Below, in pieces: positions 1 through 28,712 of a stretch of 42,415 nucleotides of DNA. This DNA is from a virus. Positions within the stretch are counted from its first letter, which is position 1. Every line of letters begins with the position of its first letter. The stretch lies in the IMG/VR virus record IMGVR_UViG_3300020438_000082, positions 1 to 42,415 of that record; one strand, 5' to 3'. The notes beneath the pieces were generated by a model, which was not told the DNA's origin, did not search any database, and saw nothing but the letters and a program-made list of their open reading frames with translations. The position numbers were made by a program, and so were the translations under genes.

Positions 1-3000
1 ACAAATTATGAGCAAATTACTGCAACTGTAACTAGACATTTAGCAACTGCCAATCTAACTGAAGAGCATGGATTGACAAATGGGGATAATGTAGTAGTTA
101 GTGTAAATCCTGGTGTTGCTTCAACATATGTTGTCAAATATAATGATTTTAATAGAAAACTAATTCTTAACGAATTATCATTTACAGAGGTTAATGTTGA
201 TATAGCAAATGATTCAATTAGAATAGACAATCATGGACTTGTAACTGGTCAAAAGGTTGTTTATACTGCTATTTCACCTTCTGGTGGATTGCAAAATAAT
301 AGAATATATTACATCTATGTTCAAGATCATAATATTATTAAATTATGTACAACTCTTTGGGAAACTGAACAATTTAAACCCAATTTTGCTAATATTACTA
401 GTGCTTCTGATGGAAACTTGGGACCAGTAAACCCACCAATTTCTGCGTTTAAAGATTCTACAGTTGTATTTAATGTAGGTGATGCTAGTTTAGCATTTAT
501 AAGAGATTCACAACCATACTCAGCATTTGAACTTGATTTCTATACTGATACTAACTTTACAGAACCTTGGAACAATAGAGTTAGTGATATTGTTAGAAAT
601 GGTCTTGCTGGTATAAATTCTACTGCTACTGTTAGTATAACAATAGACAGACATGCTCCCGATTCACTTTTCTATAACTTATCTCCGTTATATGAAACTG
701 ATCTTCCTCCAGTTAAAGAACAAGTTGCTTTTGATACTGAAGTATTTGATAATAATAAAATAGCAGTTACTGAAAGTGAATTTAGTGGAAGTAGAATAGT
801 TGCTATTGGTGATACTAATAAATTCGACTTTACTGTTGCTCAATTACCTGAATCTACTTCATATAAGAATGGAAATCCAGCATTAAGTTATAAAACATCA
901 TCAAGAAGTGCTAATGGTTCTATTTGCAGTATCAGTATTGTAAATGGTGGGGCAAATTACTACTCATTACCAGGTATTACTTCTGTTGCTTCATTTACTG
1001 GTAAAGATGCAATTGTTAAACCTTTTAGTACTTCAGTTGGATGTATCAAAAATACTAAAATCAATGATATTGGATTTGATTTCCCTTCAGACCCAACATT
1101 AAGACCAACTACAAATTTACCTCAAGTATTAACCTTAGATGCTCTTTCTAGATTAGATTCTGTTGGTATTTCATCTGCAGGTCGTGGATACATTAAAGCA
1201 CCGACTTTACTTGTCTTTGATGGAAGAACTAAGAAGAGAATTGATGGTATTGAGATAAAGTATAAGTTAGGTGATGATCAAGTATCAATAATCAAGAATA
1301 AGGAGAATTTAAATTCTATTATTCCTACAATTTTACCAGTTAATAATACTAATGGAATTGGTATTGCTACGATAGGATTTACTACAGCAACTAAAGAAGT
1401 AGTAATTGGATTTAACACTGGATTCAGTCAAGAATTCCCATTAAGTATTGGTGATAAGTTCTTAGTTGAAAACGTTAGTGTTGGAGTTGGTTCCACTGGA
1501 TTTGGATTCAATTCATCAGAATATGAGTATAAGATGTTTGTTGTTAGTAAGACAACTCCTAATCTTGGTGGTATTGGTTCTATATTCTACAATCTTGATG
1601 GATATTTACCATCTGGTGAACAACCTGGTGAATATGATGTAGTTAATTCTGTTGGTAGAGTAATACCTGAAAGAGATTTCCCAATATTTGATATTTCTTT
1701 AAAAAATAATATTTTTGCTACAAAAGAAACTATAGTATCTAATAGTGCAACTGGTGTTGTGCAATCTTGGAATCCAGTTACTGGTGAATTAAAAGTTATT
1801 TCTAATGATAACTTTATAGTTAATGAGCAAATTATTGGATCATCTTCTGCAGCTAGTGGAATAACTTCTTCTATAAAAACCTTTGATTCTAATATGGTAT
1901 TAGATGTATCATCGAAGGTATCTAGTGGATGGGAAACAAATTCTGGTTTCTTAGATGATAATCAGCAAAGAATACAAGATAGTCTCTATTATCAAAACTT
2001 CTCATATGCACTTAAGTCTAGAATTGCATATGATACTTGGCAAGATGTTGTATCTACCTTAAACCATACTCTAGGATTTAAGAAATACTCTGATTATGAT
2101 TTAGTTTCCGATTCTTCACTTCCTGAAGGTGGTTCTGGTTATTATATCAAAGGTGGTGGTACAGGTGTTGAAAACCATGTACCTGCATCTATGGTAGTTG
2201 GTGTTACTACTTCTTTAACATTCTCTGATGTTGTATCTGAGAATATTGGTGTAGGTAATCTTAATTGTGTTGCTGACTTTGATTTGGTTAGTGAAAATGC
2301 ATTACAGATTGGTAATAACACTCTATCAAACGAAATAAGATTTACAAGTAAGACACTTACTGACTATTTTGAGTCTATTGGTAACAGGGTTCTTTCTATT
2401 GATGATATAAGTCCAACATTCAACAGTAATCCTAGACCTACTCCATTCAGTGTAGTAAGTAACTTTACATTAGCAGATGTAAGAGCTCAGAAGTACATTA
2501 CTTACGTTAGAGATAAGAGATATCTTGGTGAAAGACAGATTATGATTGTTGATATTATCAACGACAACTACAATGCTTATATCAGTCAATATGCAAGAGT
2601 AGAAACTGAATATGATCTTGGAACATTTGATTTCACAGTACAAGGAACTGATGGACAGTTATTATTCTATCCAACAAGAAGTACTGTAAATGATTTTGAT
2701 ATTACATGCTTATCTTACAATATCGATGATAATTTAGCAGGAATTGGTACAACAACTATCGGTAGTACTACTATCAATACTGGTAGTTTTGATATTTCTG
2801 GTGGAACTACTACTATTGCTGAGTTTCATGCTAATTATACTCTGGGTGGAAAGGTTCTTGTAGAAATTACAGGATCGAGTAATGAATATGAAATGGATGA
2901 ACTCAATTTCATAGTTGATGCATTTGGTAAAATTGATATAATAGAATATCCTCAGATAACCACTGATGTTGGGGAAGTTGCTAGTGCTGGTATGGGAACA

Positions 3001-6000
3001 TATCATGCTTATAATGACGGTGTTAAAGTTAAGATTGATTTTATTCCATATCCTGCAACTAATAGATTATTTACAGTAGAACCTTCTGAGGTTAATGATA
3101 CTGATGACACCATTACTATGGTAAATCATAAGTTATCAACTGGATCTGGATTAAAGTATACAGAAGGTGCATTACCGATTGGTGGTCTTACTGACGGTAC
3201 AACTTATTATGTTATCAATGTAAGTGCGGATATTATTCAATTAGCAACAACTGAAGAAAATGCAAAAGAAAATATTGCAATAGATCTTACAACTTCAGGA
3301 ACAGGGCAGCAGTTCTTTAGAGTACTTACAGTAATTAACTGCATCTATAAGGAACTTAATGAAAGTCTTGTTGGTTTTGGAACACAAGTTAATATGAAAC
3401 ATGCTCGTTTAGAGAGCGATGCAGTTCAGATATCTGCATCAGGTATGCCAACTCCACAAGTGATTATGAGGTATCCAACTCAATTGGATGCAACTACTGA
3501 TGGTTTTGATGGTGCATACTTCATAGCATTTGTTGAAACTGGTGCTCAAGGTACTGCTAGTGCCATAAGATACTTCAGTGAACATATGATTATTGATGAT
3601 TATAATGAAGGATTACAAACTGGTGAAGTATACGAAGCAGAATGGGGAGTTCTAAGTCATAATAATGTTGCTGGATTAGGTACATTTGGTTATGAACTTG
3701 TTAAGAATCCAGGCGGAACTTCATTTGTAGAAGTAACATTTACTGCTCCTGCTAATAAAGCATCGAGAGTAACATATTTCATGAATGCCCTTAAGGTTCA
3801 GGATGATTTACAAGATCAAATTACTTTTGATAATGCACTAATTCAATCTGAATCTGGTACTTATGAAGGTACTCATAGTGATATTAAGAGAGCATTTAAT
3901 TTAACACATAACAACTATCCTATTTTTGATAGAGAATTTGATGGAAGTGATACTGAAATTATTAGTATTTTAGATAATACAATTAAGTTACCAAACCATT
4001 ACTTTGTTACTGGTGAAAAACTTACATACGAACCAATAGGATTAGGAAGTAGCACTAATATTGGTATTGTTACTACAACTATTTCAGGTATTGGTCAGAC
4101 TGACAAACTTCCTCGTACAGTTTATGCTGTTAAAGTTGATGAGGAGAAGATTAAACTTGCAGGATCTGCAGAAGATGCATTATTAGGAACACCTGAAATC
4201 CTAGACATTTCTAGTGTTGGTATTGGTACAACAATGAGATTTGTTGCCGATAGACAGAATACAAAGGTTATTGTTGCTCTTGATAATATTATTCAGTCTC
4301 CAGTTGTATCTACAGCACTAACAACTCATCTAGATCAACAATTATTCACTACAGACAACTTAGTACAAGTTGGAAGTATTACTTCTATATTTGGTGGAGA
4401 TTTGATTAAGATTGGTGATGAGATAATGAAGGTTGAAGGAGTTGGTATTGGAACCGCTAATGGAATAAGAGTACGTAGACCTTGGTTAGGTACTAAAGTT
4501 GGATATGCTGCAACTAGTGCATTAGTTACTAAAGTTCAAGGTAATTATAATATTGTTGATAACGTTCTTAACTTTGTAGAAGCACCTTATGGTAATGTAC
4601 CATTCAGTTCTACAACAAATGAACCTGATGAGAGAGATTGGGTAGGTATCGAGACTGGATCAAGTTTCCAAGGAAGATCCTTTATGCGTTCAGGTATTCC
4701 CGATACATCAACAGAAGCTTATAGCAACAACTATATCTTTGATGACATTTCTTCTGAATTTGATGCGATTAACAGCACATTTACATTAAAAACAGAAGGC
4801 GGTAACTTTACTGGTGTTGAACAAGATAATGCAGTTGTTTTAATTAACGACATCTTCCAAGAACCAGGATTAGTTGGTGATTACTTCTTAGAGCAGAGTG
4901 CTGGTATTACATCTGTTACTTTTGTTGGTACTGCAAGAACAATTACTAATGATGTTGGTATTTCTTCTTTCCCAAGAGGTGGTGTAATTGTTTCCGTTGG
5001 ATCTGAAGAAGGTTTAGGATATCAACCATTAGTTGATGCTGGTGGATCCCCTAATGTTTCTATTGCAGGAACAATTGGTTCAGTTAGTGTTGGTAATAGT
5101 GGATCTGGATATAGATCTGGAGTTCAGACAGTTGTTAATGTAGGAGTTAGAACAACACCTAACATTACAAGTAAAGTTGTTGATATTGGTACTGCATCAG
5201 TATCTGGTGGACATGTTACAGGAATCGCTGTTACTAATCCTCAAGTATTCAATGCACCAAGTGAGATTCAGCATGTAGATTATACAAGAACTAATGGTAT
5301 TACTACAATAACCACAATCAATCCTCACGGGTTGTCAGAAACTGAAATGGTTATTCTTTCTGGAATAGCATTCACTTGTGATTATGCTCCTGCTGTTAGC
5401 ATATATGATGCACAATATGACAATGTATCTGGTATAATGACTGTAATGACTTCCACTTCTCATGGAATTGGAAGCGATAAGCAAGTTATATTTACTGGAC
5501 TTGCAATGACATGTGGATTGGATAATGGTGCTACAACACACGTATATCCAAGAGGAAAAGATATTGCATATGATAGACCAATCAATATCCTAGATGATGG
5601 AGCACATTATACAGTAACTAATGCTGTTTATGATCCATATGAAGGTGTGATGACTATCACTATCAACAATCATGGATTTGGTAATGGAAAATTTGTTAAA
5701 CTACTAGAAGATTCAATATCATTTACATGTGATAAGGATAATTATGAAACAGTTCATGCATATCCAAGAAAAGGTGATCATTCAATTGATAGATGGTTGA
5801 AAGTTTATGATGTAACAGTCAATACATTCAAAGTTAATGTTTTAGATTTCACTCAAAGACCTTCATCAAATACTACTATTCATGCATTCCATTCTGCACT
5901 TCAAAATGGATTAGTTTACAATAATGGCAAAATAACAGTTGATGTTGGTGCTGCTGGTCCTTCAGATCAATATACACATACTTGGGCTGGAGGAACATCT

Positions 6001-9000
6001 GCTGATGCGTTATTAACTGGTGGAGATCACACACATAGATTCGTTAGTGCATCAACTGGTGCGGTAGTTACTGGCGGTGATTATAATCATACATTTGCAA
6101 GTGCTGTTGATGGTGGAGTTAGTGTAACAGGAATAGGAACCACAACACCAATTGACGCAACTTATGATGCTGCAAAAGGTGAATTAGTACTTACTATTCC
6201 AAATCATCCTTATACAGTTGATGATACTGCTACAGTTAATGCAAATGCAGTAACATTTACATGTAAGCAGGATGGTAATACAACCAACCACTCATATCCA
6301 AGAGCAACAGATCCAGTAGCAGGAATAGCAACTGCAATTGTAGGAACAAGTCAGAATACTATTACACTTCTTGTAGGTAAATCACCTCTAGTTAAGTATG
6401 ATGTTACTGATGCATCTTACTTAGGATCTACTGGTAAGTTAGTATTGACAATTGGAGATCATGCATTACGTGGATCATCTACATTCAGTGTCAATAATGT
6501 AACTTATGATGGTGTATCTGGTATCATGACCATGACAACTGCATCTGCTCATAACATGTCAGATGGTGATAAGATTAAGATTGCAGATAATGCTATAGTA
6601 TTCACATGCGGTCAAGATGGTAATAATTCAAACCACTCATATCCAAGAGCAGCAGTTCATAAAGGTAATGGTGTTGTAGAACCAGATCCTGCAAGTAATA
6701 AGTGGTTACCAATCAGTAAGGTAACAGCAAATACCTTTACTGTTAGAGTTGTAGATAGAATTCCTTCTACTAACGTAACTCCACATACATTTGTATCAGC
6801 AACTGCTAATGGACTAACCAAAGCAGGTGAATCTATCAGAATTTCAGATGATAGTTTGACATTCACTTGTTCAATGGATGATTATGTAAGTCCTCATACT
6901 TATCCAAGAGGAACTGATCCAATCTATCAGACATCAGTATCAGTTGCTGCAACAACCAACAATACAATTACATTAGATGTTGGTTTAAGTACTTCTGTTA
7001 ATTACAGTGTAACTAATGCAGATTATACTGCTTCTACTGGTATTATGACCATGACTCTTAGTGAACCTCATTCACTAGTTGCTGGTAGAAACATTAAGAT
7101 AGCAAAAGAGTCCTTAACATTCACATGTACTAAGGATGGAAATGCTACACAACATAAGTATCCAAGAAAACCAGATAAGAATTACAATGGTGTAGATGTT
7201 ATCGGTATTGGAACTTTAGTTCAACATAACGTCACTAATGCAACTTACATACCATCTAATGGTAACTTAGTTTTAACAATTGGTGCTAATCATGGATTAA
7301 AAATAGATGATTCGGTCAAGATTAAAACTAATTCATTAGTATTCACTTGTGCGATGGATAGTAATGCTACTAACCATCCTTATCCAAGACTAACTGATCC
7401 TATACATGATAAGTTTGTTAAAATTAGTAGTTCTAATCAATCTGCTGGTACAATTACATTAAATGTTGGAACAACTCCAGAAGTTGCTCATAATGTGAGT
7501 GCTGCAACATATAATCCCGAATCAGGAGAAATGGAACTAACAATTGGTCTCCATACTCTAACTGCAGGTACAAGTATTAGACTTGCTGCTAATTCATTAA
7601 ACTTCTCATGCAATAATGGTGGGGTACAGAATAGAACATATCCTCGTGCATCTGGTGCTAATACTAGTAGTGGTGCTGATTACGTATACAATACTTCGAT
7701 AAAGATTCTATCAGTTACTACAACTACTATTCTAATCAATGTTAATGATCCAGTAAATCCTGGTCCTATTAGTCATAACTATCCACATACATTCATCAGT
7801 GCAACTGCTGGTGCTGTTAAGAGTGGTGGTAACTATAATCACACATATGTTGGTGGAACTGTAGCAAATGCAGTTAGTGTTGGATCAACTGTTATTTCTG
7901 TTAATATCGGAGTTTCTACAGTACCAACATTCTATAGTTCAGGTGGTAAAGTTCAGCAAGCAATTGTTGCTCCTAGAGCAAAGAACCTTTCACCTAGTGG
8001 TGCTGATCCTGCTATTGACGGTAGTGTGGTTGTTAAGGTACTTGATAGTACTACATTTGAAGTTAATAGTGGATTATCAACCAGACATCACAACTATGCA
8101 AGAGGTGGTAAGGTTGATCCATTCTTAGATGTTGTAATCGACCAACCACTTTCGTATTCTAATATTCCATTGGTTTACAGTGGATCTGCTGCTGCAGGTG
8201 TTGGAACATATGCTACTGCTGATATTATTGTCGGACAAGGTTCTAGTATTATTAGCTTCTCTATTAAAAATAGTGGATATCGCTATGGTGTTGGTGAGAA
8301 ATTGACTGTTTCCTCTGGTGGTACTTTAGGTATTCCAACAACATCTAACTTTGAAGAATTCCAACTTACTGTTCAAGATATATTCACTGACGAATTTAAT
8401 GGTTGGTCTATGGGTATGTTACAAACCTTAGACAATGTTGATCATCTATTTGATGCTAATAGAATTAACTTCCCAATAAAAGTTGGTGGTAACCTCATTG
8501 CTATTAAATCTTCAGAAGGATCTAATATCAATGTTGAAGATACACTATTAGTATTTGTCAATGATATATTACAGGTTCCTGGTAAAGGATTTAGATTTGA
8601 CGGTGGTAGTGTAATTACCTTTGGTGAAGCACCTAAGAAAGGTGATACGTCTAAGATCCTATTCTATAAGGGAAGTGGTGATGTTGATGTTGTCTTTAGA
8701 AACATAATTGATACTGTAAAACGTGGAGACACATTAGAAATTGATAACGATGTTGAAAGAGGTCAGCATTGGAGTCTAGAAGAAGACGAAAGGATTGCTA
8801 CTAACATCTTATCAATAGACACTGCTGAAACAGATCCATATACAGGTCCAGGAAACGTTAGTGATTCTAATTTACTACGTCCAGTTACTTGGTGTCGTCA
8901 AACTGCTGATATGATTATTGATGAAACTGAGGTAGGTAAGGCAAGAGAATTGTATGAACCAGTTATTTCACCAACTGCTTACATAACTAAAGCAATTTCT

Positions 9001-10047
9001 GCTGGATCTACTGAAATATATGTTGACAACTTAAGACCATTGTTTGATGGTAAGAATGAGAATAATGTTGATCCATACTTGCTATTCCAGAAGAAAGTTA
9101 CTTTCGTTGATATGGAAACTCAAGTTGGTGCAAGTGCTACAGCAACAGTTTCTGGTGATGGAATAATTTCAATTACAGTTACTGATGGTGGTGTAGGATA
9201 TACTACTGCTCCTACAGTTTCTATTCAAAATCCTATTGGAATTGGATCTACTGCTCTTGCTACTGCAACGGTAAACAACACAGGATCTATTTCTGCTGTT
9301 TCTATTACTTACAATGGTGAAGGATATACTTCTATACCACAGGTTCTTATTTCTCCACCAACATTAACTGAAGAAACAAAACCAATTAACTGGTTCGCAG
9401 GTGATTCTGGAGTAATTGTTGGATTTGGTACTACAACTATTGCTAACAGTGATACTATGTTATTTGACTTCCATATTCCATACGGTTCTGATTTACGTGA
9501 TGCATCCATAGTAGGATCTGCTATTACATTGAGTCAGATACAGCAAGGTGATTTCTTTGTTGTTAAGAACTCTACAGTTGGTGTAGCACATACTCTAATA
9601 AGATCATATGATCTTAATGATACTGTGGTTGCAATAGGAACTGAATTTGTCAATAACATCTACGTTGTAGGTAGTGTTGAGAATAAGACAGTTAATATTC
9701 CTGGTGTTGGAGTAACAATGGTAAGAAGAGTAGGTTCTAGAATTACTGGATTATCTACAATTACCTTTGACTCTACAGGAATCACATTTGATAGTGAGAT
9801 ATATACTATGGACAACTCTGTAGTTGGGTCTGGTAATTCCTATGTTGGTACTATCGAGACTCCTATAGGAATTGGTGATTATAGTTGGGGTAAGTTACAA
9901 ACCAAATCTAAATTACAAAACAGTTACAAATTCTATGGTGGCAATGGTATTGGTGTGGGAGAGACTTCTACATCTGCTACAGGTATTCACACTTCTTCTA
10001 TCGTAAGAAGATTTGAACCTTTGAGATCAATCAATTACATAGTCTAA
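1..10047 (+). CDS. Giant repeat-rich virion structural protein, probably baseplate/fibre; 5' end outside window
   Basis: The frame is open from base 1, so the gene begins upstream and 3348 residues are visible; the TTG at 73 is only an internal codon. It is the first gene before a fibre-like gene, a protease and gp8, where T4 has gp7, so a baseplate-wedge or fibre role is inferred from position and not from clear homology. The visible protein is a chain of beta-rich modules. N-H-G-L-x-T-G units lie near bases 229, 3124 and 3994, and two V-N-D-I-x-Q-x-P-G units near 4840 and 8550. An I-G-D-E-I module lies around 4410, eight FTC...YPR units fill 5410-7647, and G-x-G-Y units lie near 1170, 5095, 8265, 9180 and 9305. 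No signal peptide, membrane segment or enzyme motif was seen. Such giants are typical of pelagic T4-like phages. The reading frame and virion class are secure; the exact role is not. Confidence 0.85.
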   Translation, partial: TNYEQITATVTRHLATANLTEEHGLTNGDNVVVSVNPGVASTYVVKYNDFNRKLILNELSFTEVNVDIANDSIRIDNHGLVTGQKVVYTAISPSGGLQNNRIYYIYVQDHNIIKLCTTLWETEQFKPNFANITSASDGNLGPVNPPISAFKDSTVVFNVGDASLAFIRDSQPYSAFELDFYTDTNFTEPWNNRVSDIVRNGLAGINSTATVSITIDRHAPDSLFYNLSPLYETDLPPVKEQVAFDTEVFDNNKIAVTESEFSGSRIVAIGDTNKFDFTVAQLPESTSYKNGNPALSYKTSSRSANGSICSISIVNGGANYYSLPGITSVASFTGKDAIVKPFSTSVGCIKNTKINDIGFDFPSDPTLRPTTNLPQVLTLDALSRLDSVGISSAGRGYIKAPTLLVFDGRTKKRIDGIEIKYKLGDDQVSIIKNKENLNSIIPTILPVNNTNGIGIATIGFTTATKEVVIGFNTGFSQEFPLSIGDKFLVENVSVGVGSTGFGFNSSEYEYKMFVVSKTTPNLGGIGSIFYNLDGYLPSGEQPGEYDVVNSVGRVIPERDFPIFDISLKNNIFATKETIVSNSATGVVQSWNPVTGELKVISNDNFIVNEQIIGSSSAASGITSSIKTFDSNMVLDVSSKVSSGWETNSGFLDDNQQRIQDSLYYQNFSYALKSRIAYDTWQDVVSTLNHTLGFKKYSDYDLVSDSSLPEGGSGYYIKGGGTGVENHVPASMVVGVTTSLTFSDVVSENIGVGNLNCVADFDLVSENALQIGNNTLSNEIRFTSKTLTDYFESIGNRVLSIDDISPTFNSNPRPTPFSVVSNFTLADVRAQKYITYVRDKRYLGERQIMIVDIINDNYNAYISQYARVETEYDLGTFDFTVQGTDGQLLFYPTRSTVNDFDITCLSYNIDDNLAGIGTTTIGSTTINTGSFDISGGTTTIAEFHANYTLGGKVLVEITGSSNEYEMDELNFIVDAFGKIDIIEYPQITTDVGEVASAGMGTYHAYNDGVKVKIDFIPYPATNRLFTVEPSEVNDTDDTITMVNHKLSTGSGLKYTEGALPIGGLTDGTTYYVINVSADIIQLATTEENAKENIAIDLTTSGTGQQFFRVLTVINCIYKELNESLVGFGTQVNMKHARLESDAVQISASGMPTPQVIMRYPTQLDATTDGFDGAYFIAFVETGAQGTASAIRYFSEHMIIDDYNEGLQTGEVYEAEWGVLSHNNVAGLGTFGYELVKNPGGTSFVEVTFTAPANKASRVTYFMNALKVQDDLQDQITFDNALIQSESGTYEGTHSDIKRAFNLTHNNYPIFDREFDGSDTEIISILDNTIKLPNHYFVTGEKLTYEPIGLGSSTNIGIVTTTISGIGQTDKLPRTVYAVKVDEEKIKLAGSAEDALLGTPEILDISSVGIGTTMRFVADRQNTKVIVALDNIIQSPVVSTALTTHLDQQLFTTDNLVQVGSITSIFGGDLIKIGDEIMKVEGVGIGTANGIRVRRPWLGTKVGYAATSALVTKVQGNYNIVDNVLNFVEAPYGNVPFSSTTNEPDERDWVGIETGSSFQGRSFMRSGIPDTSTEAYSNNYIFDDISSEFDAINSTFTLKTEGGNFTGVEQDNAVVLINDIFQEPGLVGDYFLEQSAGITSVTFVGTARTITNDVGISSFPRGGVIVSVGSEEGLGYQPLVDAGGSPNVSIAGTIGSVSVGNSGSGYRSGVQTVVNVGVRTTPNITSKVVDIGTASVSGGHVTGIAVTNPQVFNAPSEIQHVDYTRTNGITTITTINPHGLSETEMVILSGIAFTCDYAPAVSIYDAQYDNVSGIMTVMTSTSHGIGSDKQVIFTGLAMTCGLDNGATTHVYPRGKDIAYDRPINILDDGAHYTVTNAVYDPYEGVMTITINNHGFGNGKFVKLLEDSISFTCDKDNYETVHAYPRKGDHSIDRWLKVYDVTVNTFKVNVLDFTQRPSSNTTIHAFHSALQNGLVYNNGKITVDVGAAGPSDQYTHTWAGGTSADALLTGGDHTHRFVSASTGAVVTGGDYNHTFASAVDGGVSVTGIGTTTPIDATYDAAKGELVLTIPNHPYTVDDTATVNANAVTFTCKQDGNTTNHSYPRATDPVAGIATAIVGTSQNTITLLVGKSPLVKYDVTDASYLGSTGKLVLTIGDHALRGSSTFSVNNVTYDGVSGIMTMTTASAHNMSDGDKIKIADNAIVFTCGQDGNNSNHSYPRAAVHKGNGVVEPDPASNKWLPISKVTANTFTVRVVDRIPSTNVTPHTFVSATANGLTKAGESIRISDDSLTFTCSMDDYVSPHTYPRGTDPIYQTSVSVAATTNNTITLDVGLSTSVNYSVTNADYTASTGIMTMTLSEPHSLVAGRNIKIAKESLTFTCTKDGNATQHKYPRKPDKNYNGVDVIGIGTLVQHNVTNATYIPSNGNLVLTIGANHGLKIDDSVKIKTNSLVFTCAMDSNATNHPYPRLTDPIHDKFVKISSSNQSAGTITLNVGTTPEVAHNVSAATYNPESGEMELTIGLHTLTAGTSIRLAANSLNFSCNNGGVQNRTYPRASGANTSSGADYVYNTSIKILSVTTTTILINVNDPVNPGPISHNYPHTFISATAGAVKSGGNYNHTYVGGTVANAVSVGSTVISVNIGVSTVPTFYSSGGKVQQAIVAPRAKNLSPSGADPAIDGSVVVKVLDSTTFEVNSGLSTRHHNYARGGKVDPFLDVVIDQPLSYSNIPLVYSGSAAAGVGTYATADIIVGQGSSIISFSIKNSGYRYGVGEKLTVSSGGTLGIPTTSNFEEFQLTVQDIFTDEFNGWSMGMLQTLDNVDHLFDANRINFPIKVGGNLIAIKSSEGSNINVEDTLLVFVNDILQVPGKGFRFDGGSVITFGEAPKKGDTSKILFYKGSGDVDVVFRNIIDTVKRGDTLEIDNDVERGQHWSLEEDERIATNILSIDTAETDPYTGPGNVSDSNLLRPVTWCRQTADMIIDETEVGKARELYEPVISPTAYITKAISAGSTEIYVDNLRPLFDGKNENNVDPYLLFQKKVTFVDMETQVGASATATVSGDGIISITVTDGGVGYTTAPTVSIQNPIGIGSTALATATVNNTGSISAVSITYNGEGYTSIPQVLISPPTLTEETKPINWFAGDSGVIVGFGTTTIANSDTMLFDFHIPYGSDLRDASIVGSAITLSQIQQGDFFVVKNSTVGVAHTLIRSYDLNDTVVAIGTEFVNNIYVVGSVENKTVNIPGVGVTMVRRVGSRITGLSTITFDSTGITFDSEIYTMDNSVVGSGNSYVGTIETPIGIGDYSWGKLQTKSKLQNSYKFYGGNGIGVGETSTSATGIHTSSIVRRFEPLRSINYIV
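5410..7647 (+). repeat. Tandem FTC...YPR protein repeats (about eight copies)
   Basis: In the giant structural protein, a unit of roughly 60-110 residues recurs. It begins like A-x-Y-x-x-x-x-G-x-M-x-x-T-I-x-x-H, continues through a D-x-I/V-K-I stretch to F-T-C-x-x-D-x-N-x-x-x-H-x-Y-P-R, and ends with a beta-rich T-I-T-L-x-V linker. The eight YPR ends carry H-V, H-A, H-S, H-S, H-T, H-K, H-P and R-T before YPR. The copies diverge at DNA level, so the array is old or under selection and not a recent slippage product. A partial ninth unit with FTC but no YPR precedes the array. Each copy keeps one Cys and most keep one His. Confidence 0.8.
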
Positions 10048-10072: not shown

Positions 10073-11500
10073 ATGGCCAAACTAGGTATATCAACAGGAA
10101 CAAGTGCGAATGATGGTACTGGTGATACCCTGAATCAAGCTGGTACTAAATCGAATGCCAATTTTGATGAGGTTTATACCTATCTTGGCGATGGAACTAA
10201 TTTGGGTTCTACAGGAACTAGTCAGTTAGTTGCTGGTAAATTGCAGGTTGGTGCTGGAGAAAGTACGGGTGATGTTAATATTGCAACATTTAATGGATCA
10301 GTTAATGTAAATGGTGGAGATATAAGAGTTGGTGGTGGTGCGTCTATAACAGGAATTGCAACAGTTAAGTCAGATGCGGTTGTTCATGGAAACGTTTATA
10401 TTCATGCTGGTATCGTAACTGCTGGTACTGGTGTTGTTACTTACTTTGGTGATGGTTCAAGTCTTACTGGTCTAGGTGGTGCTGGTAGATGGACAGGTGA
10501 TGCTACAGGTATTAGTACATCGAAAATAGTTGGTATCAATACTATTAGTTCTTCTGCTGGTATTGCATTAACAGTTAATGGTCCTACTTATTTGGGTGGG
10601 ATAACAACTCTTTCAGATGATGTTACTTTCTTAGGTCAAGGGCGAAACATAGAATGGGATAAATCAGACAATGTTCTTTGGTTTAGAACAAATGTGGTTG
10701 GGGGAGAATCTTCCAAAGCGTGGTGGGGAGATAGTCCCAGTTTTGGCAACCTTTCGATATACATGGCTCAAGGTGGTCCAGCAATAATCGGTACTCGTCA
10801 CCAAAACCTACAAATATCAGCAGGAGACAGTAGTGATCTTAATTTGATGTCTGGTAAAGATATCAATATTAGTAATTCAGCAGGAGGAACTTCCTGGTAT
10901 TTGAGGTGTAAAGAAAATACAAATACTAGTGATCAAAATATACAACTTTATTATGGATATACTGGAAATGAGGCGAATGATGTACGATTAACAACTACTT
11001 CTGGAGGAATAGATGTTAATGGGCATGTAGGTGCTTCTGGTTCTATCACTGGTACTTCTTTCTATGGTGATGGATCAAATCTAGAAGGTGTTGCAAGTTC
11101 TGGTATTGGATTATCAACAAGAGCAACAATAAACAAACAAGTAACTGGTCTTGGTATTGGTGCAACTGTAAACACTATGTTCTTAGATGGTAGGAAATCT
11201 TGGATGTTGCAGAAAGTAGGTATTTCAAGTGCTGCATGGGTAGTCCTTTACACTGATCAAGCAGCAATGACAGCAGACGCAGATCGAAAAGTAACAACAG
11301 ACCCACTACCTGGTTCTGGTGTAATTGCAGAAGTTAATACAAGTACAGCAGGTGTTAGTACGTTCATAATGAGTCCAGGTATAATGGGATGGAACAATGA
11401 TGTATCACCATCAGACAAAATATATGTTAAGGTTTGCAATAATGAGACATCCACAGCAAACATTACAGTATCTCTAACAATCGTTCAGTTGGAGGCTTGA
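10073..11500 (+). CDS. Fibre-like virion structural protein
   Basis: This 475-residue protein has a fibre-like composition rich in Gly, Ser, Thr and Asn. Residues 6-40 hold the G-T-S-A-N-D-G-T-G-D-T-L ... N-A-N-F-D-E-V-Y motif that I know from the N-terminus of many phage fibre and baseplate-attached proteins. Two G-D-G-S-x-L-x-G-L/V units follow, typical of beta-helical fibre shafts. The last 110 residues form a separate beta-rich domain and contain I-Y-V-K-V-C-N-N-E. The ATG at 10073 follows AGGG at 10062 and a late promoter word at 10044. The gene ends three bases before the protease gene, so both probably share a transcript. A tail or baseplate fibre is the likely role. The receptor and attachment partner cannot be read from the sequence. 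Confidence 0.75.
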   Translation: MAKLGISTGTSANDGTGDTLNQAGTKSNANFDEVYTYLGDGTNLGSTGTSQLVAGKLQVGAGESTGDVNIATFNGSVNVNGGDIRVGGGASITGIATVKSDAVVHGNVYIHAGIVTAGTGVVTYFGDGSSLTGLGGAGRWTGDATGISTSKIVGINTISSSAGIALTVNGPTYLGGITTLSDDVTFLGQGRNIEWDKSDNVLWFRTNVVGGESSKAWWGDSPSFGNLSIYMAQGGPAIIGTRHQNLQISAGDSSDLNLMSGKDINISNSAGGTSWYLRCKENTNTSDQNIQLYYGYTGNEANDVRLTTTSGGIDVNGHVGASGSITGTSFYGDGSNLEGVASSGIGLSTRATINKQVTGLGIGATVNTMFLDGRKSWMLQKVGISSAAWVVLYTDQAAMTADADRKVTTDPLPGSGVIAEVNTSTAGVSTFIMSPGIMGWNNDVSPSDKIYVKVCNNETSTANITVSLTIVQLEA

Positions 11501-11503
11501 TAG

Positions 11504-14500
11504 ATGCTCAGTGATATAAAGAGAGAATATATCGTCACTGTTAGAGAGCATGGCGATTTGGGAAATTTTTATGATGAGATGGAAACTTCTGGAAGTGATG
11601 GATATTGTCCAGATAGGGAAGTAGAATGTCTTGCCAGAAGAAATGTTAGTAGAAATACACACTATAAGTTAAGTGAATTAGACGTAAGTAAATTAAAAGA
11701 TCATCCAAATGTAATCAATATAGAATTAGCACCTAATGAAAGAGGTTTAGAAGAAACTCCTCTTTGGGGTCCACAAAGTGGTGATTTCCAAAAGAACACG
11801 ACTTTTTCTAGTGGTGATCTTAACTGGGGATTAAAAAGAGTTGTTGATGGTGTCCAAACTGCCAATTGGGGAGTTGATGGGCAAATGGTTCTCAATGATA
11901 CAATACAAACAGGTTCTTCTGGAAAGAATGTTGATCTTGTAATCGTAGATAGTCATGTAAATCATGAACACCCAGAGTTTTGGGTAAATCCTCTTAGTAA
12001 TACTGGTTCTAGAATGAATCAGATCGATTGGTTTCAATATTCAGCTAATATAGGTGATAGTAACGCTGCTGGAAAAACTTATACTTACAGTGCTACTGGG
12101 TATGGTAATCCAGGTCAAAGTAATCACGGAACTCACGTTGCTGGTACTGCTGGAGGTAATACGCAAGGATGGGCAAGAGACGCTAATCTTTATAATATAG
12201 CATTTAGTACAGACCTAGTTAATAATCGATCTGGTACATCATATTCTTCTTTTGCAGTTTATCTTTTTGATTATCTAAGAGAATTTCATAAATGGAAGGG
12301 TGTTAATCCAAAAACTGGAAGAAAAAATCCAACCATAACAAATCACAGTTGGGGTTATAGTCAAGGTAGTCCAGATCTTAATAGCATTACGAATGTTGTT
12401 TATAGAGGAACTAGTACGTCAGTAAGTGGAACAGATGCTGAAAGAAAAGTTATATTAGAAGCAAATGGAGTTCCTTGTCCATATAATACTACCTTGTACA
12501 GAGTTCCTGTAAGAGTTAGTTCTGTTGGGGCTGATGTACAAGATGCTATAAATGACGGTATTATTGTTGTCAGTTCTGCTGGTAACTCTTATTGGATGTG
12601 TGATTTACCTACTGGTTCTGATTTTAACAATTATTATCAAATTGGTGCATCAACATATTATCATTCTAAAGGATCAAGTCCAGGTGCAGATGCTAATGCA
12701 ATATGTGTAGGTTCTGTTGGTGATGTTAAAGATGAATATAAATCCAGTTTTAGTAATATAGGTGCAAGAGTTGATATCTTCGCTCCAGGGTCAAATATCA
12801 TTTCTTCCGTTTTTGATACTACTGCATCTACAGAAGGATATGGAACTCTAGTAAATGATCCAAGAGATGCTAATTTTAAACTAGCAGATATTGATGGAAC
12901 TAGTATGTCTGGTCCCCAAGTTGCTGGATATCTTGCATGTCTTGCAGAACAAGAACCAAATATGACTCAGGAAGATGCAATACAACATATAAAAGATTTT
13001 GCAAAAGCAGATCAAGTTTCTTCAGATGGTTCTGCAGCAGGTTATGGTGAAGCAGAATGGACAACAGCAGGAACCTATACATGGACGTGTCCTGCTGGCG
13101 TAACTCAGGTGTCTGCTGTAGTAATTGGTGCTGGTGGAGGGGATAGAAATGCTGGTGGAGGTGGATTGGGATGGAAAAATAATATCCCAGTAACAGCAGG
13201 TCAGACATATACCGTAGAAGTTGGAGCAGGAAGTGCCAATTTATCTGGTGGAGATTCATATTTTATAAATTCGACTACTGTTAATGGTGAAGGTGGAAGA
13301 AATACTGCCAATGGTGGAACTGGTGGAACTTATGTAGGAGATGGTGGTGGTAATGGTGGTAGTGGTAACACGAATGATAATGGTGGAGGCGGTGGTGCTG
13401 GTGGATATTCAGGAAATGGTGGAATGGGTGGATATTATGGCAACACTCAGGGAGCAGATGGTACTGGAGGTGGCGGCGGTGGCGGCGGTGGATGGTCAAC
13501 TGGAGTTGCTCAAGGTGCTGGTGGTGGTGGAGTAGGAATATATGGTGAAGGAACTAATGGTGTTGGTGGTAATAGTCAAGCAGGTGGTGGCGGTGGTTCT
13601 GGTGGTACTACTCCAAGTGTTAGTGCAAGTGCTCCAAATGGTAGAGCTGGTGGATTATATGGTGGTGGAGCAGGAACATATACAGCTGGTGGTTACCAAT
13701 CTTGTAGAGGAGGTGGTGGTGCTGTTCGTATTTTATGGTGGTCTGATCCATCAACTGCAAGGACTTTCCCTTCAACCAATGTATCAAAAATGACGTTGTG
13801 GTCGCAAAATTACAAAGATCTAGCTAATAGTAATAATAGATATCTTTACTTTGAGAAAAAACGACCTGATTCTGCTATAGTATATCCACATGAAAATTGG
13901 AAGAATAGAACTAAGAATGCTAAGAATTATACTATTGGAGTAACTAATTCTGGTGCATCTGCATATGTACTTAATGGAACTGATGGTAGTGGAAATATTA
14001 GTGGAAATAATGTATCAGTACAAGCTAGAGTTGGAGATACATTAACATTCAATGTTAGTGTTACTGGACATCCATTCTGGATTAAGACAGCAAATACTAC
14101 TGGTACTGGTAGTGGTGCAGATGGTGTAACTAACAATGGTATTGAATCTGGAACTGTTACTTGGACTCCATCTTCTCCTGGAACTTATTATTATATCTGC
14201 CAATATCATGGTGGAATGGTTGGAACTATTACAATTACTGATGGAGGTCTTACATATCCAAGACCAAGAAAGGTAATAACTAAGACAGAACAATTCCCTG
14301 ATTCCTATCAGTGGAACTTTACTATTGGACATGGTGGTTCTGGTTGGTATCACGTAGAGGAAGGTTATGATAGAAATGGAACAGTACAAGAAGCAAATAA
14401 TGCAACGATTACTATAAAGACAGGAGATGTGTTGCAATTAACCATAATTGCTAGTGGTCATCCTTTCTATATTAGTAATAGGGAAGGTACTGGGCAACCA

Positions 14501-14650
14501 TCACCTTCCGAAGTTCCAAGTGGACTTACTAATAACGGCACTCAAAATGCTGTAGTAGTTTGGGATACCGCAGGTGTCACTCCAGGTACTTATTGGTATA
14601 ACTGCCAATACCATGCCTCTATGCGTGGTAACATCGTTATAACTTCCTAA
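11504..14650 (+). CDS. Virion-associated subtilisin-like serine protease with glycine-rich and two cupredoxin-like domains
   Basis: This 1048-residue multidomain protein starts 8 bases after GGAGG (11491). Residues 5-77 resemble an inhibitor I9 propeptide: Y-I-V-T-V near the start and H-P-N-V-I-N-I-E at the end. Residues about 105-510 form a peptidase S8 domain with the complete triad: Asp149 in I-V-D-S-H, His208 in N-H-G-T-H-V-A-G and Ser469 in G-T-S-M-S-G-P, plus the oxyanion Asn361 in S-A-G-N-S. Residues about 520-750 are a glycine-rich domain opening with W-T-C-P-A-G-V-T. Two related cupredoxin-like domains follow, at about 805-920 and 945-1048. Each has G-H-P-F and then C-Q-Y-H-x-x-M (His856, Cys899, His902, Met905; His986, Cys1034, His1037, Met1040). 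No secretion signal is seen, and with fibre genes on one side and gp8 on the other a tail location is likely. The substrate is unknown, and copper binding is inferred only from the ligand pattern. Confidence 0.85.
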   Translation: MLSDIKREYIVTVREHGDLGNFYDEMETSGSDGYCPDREVECLARRNVSRNTHYKLSELDVSKLKDHPNVINIELAPNERGLEETPLWGPQSGDFQKNTTFSSGDLNWGLKRVVDGVQTANWGVDGQMVLNDTIQTGSSGKNVDLVIVDSHVNHEHPEFWVNPLSNTGSRMNQIDWFQYSANIGDSNAAGKTYTYSATGYGNPGQSNHGTHVAGTAGGNTQGWARDANLYNIAFSTDLVNNRSGTSYSSFAVYLFDYLREFHKWKGVNPKTGRKNPTITNHSWGYSQGSPDLNSITNVVYRGTSTSVSGTDAERKVILEANGVPCPYNTTLYRVPVRVSSVGADVQDAINDGIIVVSSAGNSYWMCDLPTGSDFNNYYQIGASTYYHSKGSSPGADANAICVGSVGDVKDEYKSSFSNIGARVDIFAPGSNIISSVFDTTASTEGYGTLVNDPRDANFKLADIDGTSMSGPQVAGYLACLAEQEPNMTQEDAIQHIKDFAKADQVSSDGSAAGYGEAEWTTAGTYTWTCPAGVTQVSAVVIGAGGGDRNAGGGGLGWKNNIPVTAGQTYTVEVGAGSANLSGGDSYFINSTTVNGEGGRNTANGGTGGTYVGDGGGNGGSGNTNDNGGGGGAGGYSGNGGMGGYYGNTQGADGTGGGGGGGGGWSTGVAQGAGGGGVGIYGEGTNGVGGNSQAGGGGGSGGTTPSVSASAPNGRAGGLYGGGAGTYTAGGYQSCRGGGGAVRILWWSDPSTARTFPSTNVSKMTLWSQNYKDLANSNNRYLYFEKKRPDSAIVYPHENWKNRTKNAKNYTIGVTNSGASAYVLNGTDGSGNISGNNVSVQARVGDTLTFNVSVTGHPFWIKTANTTGTGSGADGVTNNGIESGTVTWTPSSPGTYYYICQYHGGMVGTITITDGGLTYPRPRKVITKTEQFPDSYQWNFTIGHGGSGWYHVEEGYDRNGTVQEANNATITIKTGDVLQLTIIASGHPFYISNREGTGQPSPSEVPSGLTNNGTQNAVVVWDTAGVTPGTYWYNCQYHASMRGNIVITS
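13120..13735 (+). repeat. Glycine-rich low-complexity coding region (GGT/GGA-rich)
   Basis: In the protease gene, about 200 codons are dominated by glycine, with runs of G-G-G-G and G-N-G-G-x-G. The DNA is accordingly GGT/GGA/GGC-rich and richer in G than its surroundings. The opening T-Y-T-W-T-C-P-A-G-V followed by V-V-I-G-A-G-G-G matches the glycine-rich domain found on many phage adhesins and bacterial surface proteins, where polyglycine-II packing is known for some members. A binding or spacer role here is inferred. Confidence 0.75.
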
Positions 14651-14675: not shown

Positions 14676-16223
14676 ATGTCTGCAATTATAACCGATCAGA
14701 TTAGAATATTAAACGCAAAGAATTTTGTTGCTGGTGTAGCTAGTAGCGAAAATTCTTACTATTCTTTTATAGGTCTACCTAATCCGTCTGATGTTCAGAA
14801 TAATTGGGACACTGATCCACCTACTCCAAAAGATTCATTCGATCAAGAGAGGTCATATTATGACACTATGATTGCAATGAAGAAAATTAACAATGCAGAT
14901 ATTAGACAGGTTGTAACCAAAAGAATTTGGAAGTCTGGTACAAAATATGACATGTATCGTCATGACTATAGTAGGTCAAATACATCGGCAATATCTAAGG
15001 CAACTAATTTATATAATGCATCATATTATGTTATAAATGATGATTACCGAGTCTATATGTGTCTACAAAATGGCACAAGTCCAGACTATCCAAATGGACA
15101 AATTTCATTAGATCAACCAACATTTACTGATTTAGAACCAAGATCCGCAGGAACTAGTAATGATGGATATATTTGGAAATATCTTTTTACTATTAAACCG
15201 AATGAAATTATAAAATTTGAAACTTCTGATTTTATTCCAGTTCCACAGGAATGGAGTACTTCTGCAGATAATGCTCCTGTTAGAGACAATGCAATTGACG
15301 GTTCTGTTAAGATAGTTACTGTTCAAAATGCTGGTGTTAATGTTGGAGCAATATCAACATCATATACAAGAGTTCCTATCAATGGTGATGGAAATGGTGC
15401 AGAAGCAACAGTTGTTGTCAATAATGATTTAAAAATAGATTCTGTTACGATATCTAGTCAAGGTTCTGGATATACTTACGGTACATTAGATTTAGCAGCA
15501 GGTGGAGTTCCTATTGCGACTACTCCTGCAGAATTTAATGTTATTATTCCACCATCAGGTGGTCATGGTGCAGATATATATCGTGAACTTGGTGCATTTA
15601 ATATTTTAATGTATTCAAGACTAGAGAATGATACAGAAAACCCTGATTTCATTACTAATAACCAGTTTGCTAGAATTGGTGTAGTAGAGAATCCTCTTGC
15701 ACCTAACAGCACACTCCCTTTAACATTAGATAAAGCAAGTGCATTGAATGCAATTAGATTGACTGGTATTGGATATAGTTCTGCTACATTCACTCCAGAT
15801 GCCACCTTTATTCAAACAATAGGTACAGGTCTTACTGCTGCTGGTAGAGTAGTTAATTACGATCAAACAACAGGAGTGTTAAAGTATTGGCAGGATAGGG
15901 TTGGATTTAATACAGTTGGTTCTGCTGTAACAGATGCACCATATGGTTATGAACAACTAGAATTTACTAGCAGTCCTTCTACTGGTGGTACTCTGGTAAT
16001 AACTCCATCAACTGGATCAAATTTACAGATAGACTCCTCCTTTAGCGGTTTCAGCACCTCTATAAATAATAGGACATATAATCTTGGTCAAGATTTTACC
16101 GACGGTATTTCTGCCCCTGAAGTTAAAAGATATTCAGGAAACATTATTTACGTTGACAACAGACCATCTGTAAACAGATCTGTAAACCAAAAAGAAGATA
16201 TTAAAGTCATCTTGCAATTCTAA
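14676..16223 (+). CDS. 8: Baseplate wedge protein gp8
   Basis: This 515-residue protein matches T4 gp8 (334 aa) at recognisable points. An early stretch reads Y-S-F-I-G-L-P-N-P, a central one D-G-Y-I-W-K-Y-L-F-T-I-K-P (T4 has D-G-Y-V-W-E-Y-L-F-E-I-P-P), and the C-terminus reads I-Y-V-D-N-R-P ... Q-K-E-D-I-K-V-I-L-Q-F (T4: I-Y-M-E-N-R-P ... E-E-I-N-I-L-F-T-F). In T4, gp8 is a dimeric wedge component contacting gp7, gp10 and gp6. The extra length lies mainly in the middle and includes a G-S-G-Y module near 15465 of the type found in the neighbouring giants. The ATG at 14676 has no clear Shine-Dalgarno, so late transcription and the A-rich leader may suffice. The identity is strong. Confidence 0.9.
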   Translation: MSAIITDQIRILNAKNFVAGVASSENSYYSFIGLPNPSDVQNNWDTDPPTPKDSFDQERSYYDTMIAMKKINNADIRQVVTKRIWKSGTKYDMYRHDYSRSNTSAISKATNLYNASYYVINDDYRVYMCLQNGTSPDYPNGQISLDQPTFTDLEPRSAGTSNDGYIWKYLFTIKPNEIIKFETSDFIPVPQEWSTSADNAPVRDNAIDGSVKIVTVQNAGVNVGAISTSYTRVPINGDGNGAEATVVVNNDLKIDSVTISSQGSGYTYGTLDLAAGGVPIATTPAEFNVIIPPSGGHGADIYRELGAFNILMYSRLENDTENPDFITNNQFARIGVVENPLAPNSTLPLTLDKASALNAIRLTGIGYSSATFTPDATFIQTIGTGLTAAGRVVNYDQTTGVLKYWQDRVGFNTVGSAVTDAPYGYEQLEFTSSPSTGGTLVITPSTGSNLQIDSSFSGFSTSINNRTYNLGQDFTDGISAPEVKRYSGNIIYVDNRPSVNRSVNQKEDIKVILQF

Positions 16224-27796: not shown

Positions 27797-28194
27797 TGAA
27801 ACAATTAGATAAAGCATTTAACATCACTCCTGAAGTGGTTTCAGAAGAACCTAAACCTGTGGTTAAAGAAAAACCAGATAGGTTGACTAAGAATGATGTT
27901 GAGAAAGATTATGACTATACAAGAGGTAATCTTTATAGTATTATCGAAAAAGGTCAAGAAGCAATTGATGGTATTCTCGAACTTGCTCAAGAAACTGAGC
28001 AACCAAGAGCATATGAAGTTGCTGGTCAGTTGATTAAGAGTGTATCTGATGCAACTGATAAGTTAATGGATCTTCAGAAGAAACTGAAGGATGTTGAAGA
28101 AGAGAAGACTAAAACAACCAATGTTACTAATAATGCATTGTTTGTTGGGTCTACTTCAGACTTAGCTAAGTTAATCAAACAGCAAAATCAATGA
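27796..28194 (+). CDS. 16: Small terminase subunit gp16
   Basis: This 132-residue protein (T4 gp16 has 164) overlaps the gp15 stop by one base. A charged N-terminal section is followed by D-Y-D-Y-T-R-G-N-L-Y-S-I-I-E-K-G-Q-E-A-I-D-G-I. Next comes a central helical region with R-A-Y-E-V-A-G-Q-L-I-K and a coiled K-L-M-D-L-Q-K-K-L-K segment. The C-terminus reads N-N-A-L-F-V-G-S-T-S-D-L-A-K-L-I-K, the conserved tail of T4-family gp16. The protein forms rings that recognise DNA and stimulate the large terminase ATPase. Two small genes separate it from gp17, whereas in T4 the two are adjacent. Confidence 0.9.
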   Translation: MKQLDKAFNITPEVVSEEPKPVVKEKPDRLTKNDVEKDYDYTRGNLYSIIEKGQEAIDGILELAQETEQPRAYEVAGQLIKSVSDATDKLMDLQKKLKDVEEEKTKTTNVTNNALFVGSTSDLAKLIKQQNQ

Positions 28195-28712
28195 AGAAAT
28201 TCAGAGACTTTCTTAAAGAACAACCCACCAACGTTTCTGGTGGTGTTGCTAAATTTGATAAGTATCTGTTTCCTATTGATGATGATACATTAACTCAGGA
28301 CTATCAAACACCCTATGGGTTGAATTATAGATTGTCTAATATCTTTCCTGTAGAGAAACTAACCCTTCAGGATATAGATACTATGACAGATGCTTCTAAG
28401 AAGTATGTCAACATGCAAGACGAGAGTGCTAGGCAACGAACTATGAAGAATTATTCACAATTCATGGAAGAAACCAAGTTTAAAACTTGTCCTTCTGGTA
28501 AATATTGGTGTTTCACGGATAAAAAATGTAAACCTATTCCTCGTGGATATTATGTTGGTGCGAGAGGAAGATTAGAAAACGACTCAGAAGAAGGAGAGAC
28601 TAAAACTAATGGAAACACAACTAATGGTAATAGCGGTGTGGACGGTGGTAATGGCAGCAGCAGTAGTAATGGTGGTGGGAACGGTGGCGGCTCTAATGGG
28701 GGAGGATCATGA
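28191..28712 (+). CDS. Unknown protein with Cys motif and Gly/Asn/Ser-rich tail
   Basis: This 173-residue protein overlaps gp16 and the next gene by ATGA, so all three should be translated together. It begins M-K-K-F-R-D-F-L-K-E-Q, a short basic amphipathic start. The middle contains C-P-S-G-K-Y-W-C-F-T-D-K-K-C-K-P-I-P-R-G-Y, with three Cys in 14 residues and surrounding Lys, suggesting a small metal-bound or disulphide-linked knuckle. The last 40 residues are nearly all Gly, Asn and Ser and look disordered. The family is unknown to me beyond a vague resemblance to small proteins near the terminase genes of marine myoviruses. Position suggests a packaging or virion role, but nothing in the sequence proves it. 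Confidence 0.75.
   Translation: MKKFRDFLKEQPTNVSGGVAKFDKYLFPIDDDTLTQDYQTPYGLNYRLSNIFPVEKLTLQDIDTMTDASKKYVNMQDESARQRTMKNYSQFMEETKFKTCPSGKYWCFTDKKCKPIPRGYYVGARGRLENDSEEGETKTNGNTTNGNSGVDGGNGSSSSNGGGNGGGSNGGGS

Follow-up and report, generated by a model that had tools for sequence, protein, structure and literature searches.

A predicted subtilase encoded directly after a baseplate-pin gene in a putative T4-like cyanophage carries ligand-complete cupredoxin domains

A stretch of viral DNA spanning 42,415 nucleotides (IMG/VR record IMGVR_UViG_3300020438_000082, positions 1 to 42,415; referred to here as the window) contains an open reading frame (ORF) predicted to encode a subtilisin-like (S8) protease to which a glycine-rich domain and two cupredoxin domains are appended. 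The enzyme falls into a known, apparently uncharacterised cyanophage family, of which the domain arrangement seen here is a new variant. Because a pin-type gene lies directly upstream of 67 of the 73 distinct S8 ORFs compared, the protease belongs, as judged from gene order, to a pin-plus-tip gene pair. The reading considered best, to which an even chance of being correct is assigned, is that this T4-like cyanophage has a baseplate pin tipped with the enzyme-bearing protein, which would grip the host surface and cut protein found there. The predicted features of the protease gene are as follows.

11504..14650, plus strand: protease coding sequence, a single ATG-started ORF of 1048 amino acids, ordered as propeptide, S8, glycine-rich domain, linker with cupredoxin 1, YPRPR tail and cupredoxin 2
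11504..11743, plus strand: propeptide-like N-terminal domain, residues 1-80, beta-alpha-beta-beta-alpha-beta in the model
11768..13018, plus strand: S8 catalytic domain, residues about 89-505, proteinase K-like (Pfam, Foldseek, VIA)
11948..11950, plus strand: catalytic Asp149, kept in 70/70 testable among the 73 ORFs
12125..12127, plus strand: catalytic His208, kept in 70/70 testable among the 73 ORFs
12584..12586, plus strand: oxyanion-hole Asn361, kept in 72/72 testable among the 73 ORFs
12902..12904, plus strand: catalytic Ser467 in the motif GTSM, kept in 72/72 testable among the 73 ORFs
13049..13753, plus strand: glycine-rich domain, residues 516-750, an exchangeable module (Gly_rich_2 under cut-off; PHROG 4474; dip in nucleotide identity relative to L015)
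13796..13912, plus strand: first half of the conserved family linker tail, NNRYLYF..RP..YP..N (family alignment)
13919..14242, plus strand: cupredoxin 1, residues 806-913, with His856, Cys899, His902 and Met905, sitting within the linker tail
14255..14269, plus strand: YPRPR, residues 918-922, second half of the linker tail (family conservation)
14309..14647, plus strand: cupredoxin 2, residues 936-1048, with His986, Cys1034, His1037 and Met1040 (motif and profile)

Judged from its predicted structure, the window protein has the subtilase (S8) fold, as a previous sequence-only reading of the window had proposed. Pfam Peptidase_S8 (PF00082) matched residues 140-515 (E 8.6e-27), the top Foldseek match of the AlphaFold model was pro-Tk-subtilisin (3afg; E 5e-17, TMt 0.80), with proteinase K-like enzymes coming next, and comparison with 2b6n using VIA gave a Z score of 34.4 (root-mean-square deviation 2.1, 273 residues), with the alignment starting at residue 89, consistent with a mature start near that position. 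The model, prepared with 47 relatives supplied, showed a mean predicted local distance difference test score (pLDDT) of 75.6 and a predicted template modelling score of 0.53 for the whole protein; pLDDT was mostly 80-94 in the S8 region (with ten-residue means going down to about 70) and low over large parts of the glycine-rich region and linker. In the VIA list obtained with the whole model, matches to the S8 domain took up all places, leaving the list uninformative on the remaining domains. The Asp-His-Ser order of the triad, together with the oxyanion Asn, is found in the sequence at D149, H208, N361 and S467. Of the residues previously assigned to the catalytic set, Asp149, His208 and Asn361 were thus retained, whereas Ser469 is the second Ser of GTSMSGP, the predicted catalytic Ser being Ser467 in GTSM.

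An I9-like propeptide had likewise been proposed. Residues 7-75 of the model present a beta-alpha-beta-beta-alpha-beta order in predicted secondary structure, the order of I9 propeptides, and the top structural match is to a pro-subtilisin; by contrast, Pfam I9 gave no match at E 0.01 among 48 scanned family members. No signal peptide was seen in the protease upon inspection by eye, no predictor having been used. In fold and catalytic residues the protein resembles the proteinase K-like subtilases 2b6n, aqualysin and pro-Tk-SP (3afg), the last of which also has a propeptide; it differs from these enzymes in presenting no visible signal peptide and in being encoded within a phage tail gene cluster.

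The 73 distinct S8 ORFs were collected from loci fetched with P0001 (the window protein) and A2, together with S-CREM1, S-CAM4, P-SSM2 and Sf-FR1; the window sequence is counted once, L006 and L087 being one IMG/VR contig that is identical to the window in the protease gene. In those ORFs that reach the relevant columns, none of the four catalytic residues varies, with identity to the window protein falling to about 30%, and the S8 assignment is therefore not due to chance. Ten of the 11 further, mostly distant sequences included in the S8 tree also keep all four residues; the S-CAM1 protease presents Glu at the catalytic Asp column. Support is low at some nodes of this tree (0.35, 0.61). An IMG/VR scan with the protease alignment returned 421 relatives, the best 80 of which were kept. 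Among public phages, 62 records matched the window protein, 61 corresponding to a cyanophage or marine virus and 0 covering 80% of the protein in one place, RefSeq duplicates of a genome being included in all counts of phage records.

The gene upstream of the protease, its conserved C-terminal domain (termed pinC) and the site from which translation of the protease may be initiated are positioned as follows.

10073..11500, plus strand: pin gene upstream of the protease (PF07880, T4 gp9/10-type N-terminus, E 3.9e-6; N-terminal part PHROG 677)
11105..11497, plus strand: pinC, the conserved C-terminal domain of the pin protein (131 residues), adjoining the 5' side of the protease in 67/73 S8 ORFs
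11491..11495, plus strand: GGAGG ribosome-binding-like site of the protease gene, within the last pin codons (LEA), with the pin stop TGA at 11498-11500 and the ATG at 11504

In the 67 ORFs, pinC and protease genes are separated by -10 to +3 nucleotides (by first Met), and the Glu of the LEA codons that overlap GGAGG is invariant in 36 pinC sequences. Five of the six ORFs lacking an upstream pinC are truncated at the point where the contig begins, and that of P-SSM2 is instead accompanied by pinC2. Profile testing of 16 loci revealed pinC before eight, pinC2 before six (P-SSM2, S-SCSM1, AG-345-F15, L019, L020 and L047, all in one S8 group) and neither before two (S-BM3 and P-HM2). Five of the pinC2 loci are included in the S8 tree, where they group as a single clade (support 0.99). 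PinC accompanies the main S8 group, S-CAM1 and the S-CAM4 group; in the tree, S-CAM1 lies nearest to S-BM3 and P-HM2. PinC2, a second type of pin C-terminal domain, is represented by L005:7171-7935, L082:3280-4827 and L168:2413-5577. PinC itself is predicted to be a beta-sandwich (pLDDT 91). Assigning a function on the basis of this fold was rejected, its structural matches being generic, and no weight was given to a match to the C-terminal domain of Tk-SP (3afg, Z 7.8), as this was tied with unrelated viral coat proteins. PF07880, present in the upstream pin, was not detected in the protease protein itself at E 1 (Pfam).

The protease gene is not unique to this virus. The propeptide-S8 unit matches PHROG 9158 (E 2.3e-147, best stretch residues 4-505), a group annotated as function unknown that covers S8 and a cupredoxin at the C-terminal end, the annotation of P-SSM2_297 states that it contains PF00082, and an article from 2010 (PMC3037559) mentions S8 peptidases in P-HM1 and P-HM2, which are cyanophages. 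The cluster number given there is 518, one off from the 519 carried by the S8-like gene in the P-HM2 record. Both the enzyme and its pairing with a cupredoxin were, therefore, already present in databases, albeit unnamed. Indeed, the same propeptide-S8 unit is found in the cyanophage S8 peptidases of PHROG 9158, in P-SSM2_297 and S-MbCM7_177 (both labelled T4-GC_292) and in S-CREM1_165. The latter, 54% identical to the window protein and encoded at the same place after a pin gene, is 559 residues long and ends with the linker tail; like it, most of the 73 S8 proteins lack the glycine-rich and cupredoxin domains of the window protein.

S-CAM4_190, ACG-2014i and AG-345-P14 each combine S8 with a ligand-complete C-terminal cupredoxin and are preceded by a pinC gene, as in the window; unlike the window protein, they carry a single cupredoxin and no glycine-rich domain. 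The S8 domain of S-CAM4 is 33% identical to that of the window, and no gp8 is annotated within the surrounding 18 kb. More broadly, the C-terminal modules of the family vary, comprising glycine-rich and cupredoxin domains in the window, laminin-G-type lectins in S-SCSM1 and none in most of the 73. The view of this combination as an isolated oddity was rejected, given that cupredoxins occupy six different places in S8 proteins. In S-MbCM7_177 (L175:4986-7910), the stretch between S8 and the cupredoxin is matched weakly by the Pfam families acetyl xylan esterase and BD-FAE, both under cut-off.

Evidence on virion location comes from cyanophage S-SCSM1, for which 45 proteins were identified by mass spectrometry of virions purified on caesium chloride (PMC9602691). 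In the corresponding record (MK867354.2), 48 coding sequences are labelled virion protein (16, 15, 0, 12 and 5 when counted by sections). These include SSCSM1_228, in which a complete S8 domain (24-550, E 7e-98) is followed by laminin-G-type lectin domains, SSCSM1_227, encoded by the gene directly upstream, and SSCSM1_231, with a cupredoxin and a pinC-like end. Since the labels cover the three non-structural proteins named as detected in that study (PMC9602691) and are absent from structural proteins such as SSCSM1_17, 209, 211, 215 and 245, they most likely record detection.

The glycine-rich section had been described as adhesin-like, a view in line with its behaviour as an exchangeable module. 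Pfam Gly_rich_2 matches residues 520-745 (E 6.3e-4, 20.3 bits) under the cut-off of 24.3, 11 of 48 family members match Gly_rich_2 at E 0.01, and no match to a solved structure was obtained by sequence at E 1. At the nucleotide level, the window and the near-identical L015 agree at 98% over the 256 residues of S8 that were compared and at 95% and 99% over cupredoxins 1 and 2, respectively, as opposed to 74% over the glycine-rich domain, the 74% stretch lying between flanks of 98% and 94%; codon differences at unchanged residues amounted to 0.22 in the glycine-rich domain, as compared to 0.02. Relative to the more distant L008, S8 and the glycine-rich domain are 78% and 80% identical, respectively. 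Because identity drops relative to L015 and not relative to L008, the glycine-rich domain appears to have been exchanged by recombination, although its repeats render the alignment less certain than that of the flanks. Such exchange is usual for host-range determinants. The domain may be likened to glycine-rich tail adhesins, such as gp38 of Salmonella phage S16, being likewise glycine-rich and exchanged between close relatives. Cupredoxin 2 is uneven as well, with 54% amino acid identity to L090, whose S8 is 88% identical.

As also proposed previously, each of two domains presents a Cys-x-x-His-x-x-Met motif preceded by a GHPF His, namely His856 with C899, H902 and M905, and His986 with C1034, H1037 and M1040, and both are thus ligand-complete. 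Pfam Copper-bind (PF00127) matches residues 838-911 with 23.9 bits in the whole protein (cut-off 21.2) and with 20.8 bits when cupredoxin 1 is considered alone. A profile of 20 phage cupredoxins matched copper nitrite reductase (E 7.8e-7), plastocyanin (1.5e-6), pseudoazurin (1.7e-6) and amicyanin (3.3e-5), and seven of the 20, taken as single domains, matched Pfam Copper-bind at E 0.01. The phage domains thus share a profile match and four ligands with the blue copper proteins plastocyanin, pseudoazurin, amicyanin and copper nitrite reductase, from which they differ in sitting on tail-type proteins. In the fetched loci, 52 ORFs (duplicates included) carry a cupredoxin, corresponding to 52 distinct domain sequences. 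This set was obtained by an iterated profile search seeded with the two window domains, and was reduced to 38 upon dropping pieces shorter than 80 residues and thinning to less than 70% identity. In the thinned set, the first His is kept in 37/38 sequences, and the Cys, His and Met, as well as the Tyr two positions before the Cys, in 36/37, placing the four ligands among the best-conserved columns of the alignment; profiles built from ligand-bearing domains do, however, favour such domains, so that degenerate copies may be undercounted. The spacing C-x2-H-x2-M, that of amicyanin, is found in 49/52 domains, with one domain having a longer Cys-His spacing and L123 and S-CAM1 having no such motif in that place, whereas the plastocyanin of S-SCSM1 itself shows C-x2-H-x4-M. 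In the S8 protein of L123 (2439-4427), all four ligands of the cupredoxin-like domain have been lost together.

Within S8 proteins, the cupredoxin is found at the C-terminus (window, S-CAM4, ACG-2014i, AG-345-P14, S-MbCM7 and also P-HM2), ahead of the linker tail (L123), inside the tail (cupredoxin 1 of the window), between the His and Asn blocks (L019, L020, L047, AG-345-F15 and S-BM3), before the catalytic domain (P-HM2) and between the Asp and His blocks (S-CAM1). In the last case (SXBG_00005, L163:6389-8644), the ligand strand precedes the rest of the domain, with all four ligands being kept. In its natural order, this cupredoxin matched the profile in two pieces (25.1 and 77.6 bits), while the rotated sequence gave one full match (112.6 bits), and the domain is, as such, apparently circularly permuted. 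The same cupredoxin matches gp9-named, baseplate tail-fibre connector and tail fiber genes of many cyanophages (L079:5059-6504; hits H160, H161, H166-H171, H208, H209 and H217-H229) and is also found on the pin proteins of L100, L125 and L133. All 20 phage cupredoxins matched PHROG 677, the cyanophage gp9 connector, cupredoxin 1 doing so at the end of the profile (310-410 of 412); this connector contains the same cupredoxin family, is named a baseplate tail-fibre connector and has no protease. The 339 records that matched the cupredoxin do not provide a count of tail domains, as they may include true plastocyanin genes (one row is named PetE). Given these many positions and proteins, and that cupredoxin-bearing forms fall in several separate places in the S8 tree, the module is mobile among cyanophage tail-type proteins.

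In the window clade, cupredoxin 1 was seen solely in the window sequence and in L015. A recent tandem duplication of cupredoxins 1 and 2 was considered and rejected, their mutual identity being 40%, as compared to 62% between cupredoxin 1 and the domain of the L020 protease; cupredoxin 1 is, moreover, absent from close relatives such as L007, in which both flanks are kept. In a genome scan, one locus assigned to an uncultured Bacteroidetes (L174:4008-5357) was found to contain most of the same cupredoxin at the ORF end, with the profile match stopping before the ligand loop. A literature search limited to titles and the beginnings of abstracts revealed no report of a cupredoxin on a phage tail.

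How an enzyme-bearing pin tip might work can be outlined. The gp9/gp10-type N-terminus of the pin protein would seat in the baseplate, leaving the C-terminal pinC for docking. The protease, translated right after the pin, would be held by pinC via its C-terminal linker, the conserved tail NNRYLYF...YPRPR. While folding in the host cytoplasm, the protease would be kept inactive by the I9-like propeptide, which it would then remove itself, this being the self-activation. The glycine-rich and cupredoxin modules would serve as interchangeable host-surface grips, and, on contact, the protease would cut surface protein, clearing a path for the baseplate. In this outline, docking, self-activation, a host-surface substrate, copper binding and the location of the protein in the virion of the window phage are inferred.

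Several observations weigh against such a role. The virion labels of S-SCSM1 and the mass spectrometry hits are not identical (48 as compared to 45, with one label on a translational repressor), SSCSM1_228 is only 27.5% identical to the window protein over 47% of the query and shows no match to the glycine-rich or cupredoxin domains, and for S-CREM1, which has the same locus, 14 virion proteins were detected, the word "peptidase" being absent from the text (PMC9964418). The S8 proteins of S-BM3 and P-HM2 have neither partner domain, and the pinC2 profile drew on half of the six loci that it finds (P-SSM2, S-SCSM1 and AG-345-F15), the remaining three being closely related to one another, making for a weak test. 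The fold of pinC is generic (best VIA Z 8.2), with no function-telling relative among its structural matches. Among phage records matching pinC, S8 lies directly downstream in 35/49 and not in 14/49 (two matching records being unlisted), those without an adjoining S8 including PSS2, S-CBS2 and Sf-CH1b; in Sf-CH1b, pinC is followed by a cupredoxin protein with no detected S8 domain. Still, the occurrence of pinC without S8 suits a docking domain for a variable tip. Finally, a protease with no visible secretion signal could equally work inside the cell.

This last point leads to the possibility that the enzyme acts as the tail matures in the infected cell, cutting the pin or other fibres of the tail, and remains on the particle only as a passenger. 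The lack of a visible signal peptide would agree with this, as would the tight coupling to the pin gene (67/73) and the confinement of the alternative partner to one S8 group, as enzyme and substrate would show. An assembly protease would also allow for the virion label of SSCSM1_228, which otherwise speaks against it, yet the variety of C-terminal modules (glycine-rich, cupredoxin, laminin-G lectins, weakly esterase-like or none) better suits a host-facing part. The conservation of the catalytic residues, the virion label and the presence of modules of a binding type (lectin, glycine-rich and weakly esterase-like) favour a host-facing enzyme, and a role in assembly is deemed unlikely. By analogy to PCSK9, which in animals cleaves its own propeptide and then acts as a folded scaffold, the protease might instead cut only its own propeptide and from then on serve as a scaffold for the grips. 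PCSK9 chains are among the structural matches, although any subtilase would draw them, and the Glu at the catalytic Asp column in S-CAM1 suggests that full activity may not always be needed; the invariance of the four catalytic residues in the testable part of the 73 ORFs and the fact that the best structural matches are free proteinases nonetheless make a self-cleaving adhesin quite improbable. Least probable is an enzyme of lysis or release that acts on protein late in infection and has no working part in the tail; the location of the gene among baseplate genes, the coupling to the pin gene and the virion label of the homologue all speak against this.

As to the cupredoxins alone, they may be plain beta-sandwich spacers, like the immunoglobulin-like domains of other phages, with the metal site serving only for stability of the fold. 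This view, which we hold to be conceivable if somewhat doubtful, would explain their presence at many places in many tail proteins, and the undercounting of degenerate copies by ligand-bearing profiles would play in its favour; it sits poorly with ligands that are among the most conserved columns (37/38 and 36/37 at less than 70% identity) and with the concerted loss of all four in L123, as a pure spacer would need no metal site. From the pattern of conservation, the metal site looks to be selected. Going further, the modules of the S8 tip, gp9 and other fibres could be working blue-copper sites on cyanophage tails that bind copper, with the metal or its redox state aiding host contact through grip or gating of the tip, a proposal that is speculative and rather unlikely to hold. 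Were it true, the tail would either sense copper or make use of it, copper being in short supply in open-sea water and having toxic effects on picocyanobacteria.

For specialists, the surprising part is likely to be the repeated, ligand-complete copper-type domains on tail proteins, rather than the protease. We know of no purpose for an intact copper site on viral tail proteins, found at many positions and once apparently permuted. In surveys of photosynthesis genes, moreover, tail cupredoxins could be taken for plastocyanin genes of phages. The findings also bear on how phages get past the surface layers of marine picocyanobacteria: the conserved pin-protease pair, the catalytic conservation and the virion label of a homologue make host-surface proteolysis directly testable in cultured cyanophages.

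The window is assigned to a T4-like cyanophage because its terminase is 89% identical to that of a marine single-cell virus and ~84% identical to those of cyanophages SynMITS9220M01 and Bellamy; the cyanobacterial host is inferred. Genes in the window are ordered gp7-like, pin (with its gp9/10-type N-terminus), protease and gp8, and the previously proposed position of the protease gene in a baseplate cluster was upheld by Pfam and PHROG matches of its neighbours. The outer two of these genes are as follows.

1..10047, plus strand: gp7-like baseplate wedge protein, 5' end open (local BLAST match to an S-CREM1 protein annotated as baseplate wedge subunit)
14676..16223, plus strand: gp8-like baseplate wedge subunit, the next gene 3' of the protease (PF09215, E 4.3e-15; PHROG 438, E 4.4e-160)

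A Pfam search with the gp7-like protein (1..10047) returned no match. In S-CREM1, gene order is identical, but the protein is peptidase-only and one extra gene is found ahead of gp8. Elsewhere in the window, two small genes between the terminase subunits (28191-28712 and 28709-29344) match different parts of the profile of PHROG 30733, annotated as function unknown.

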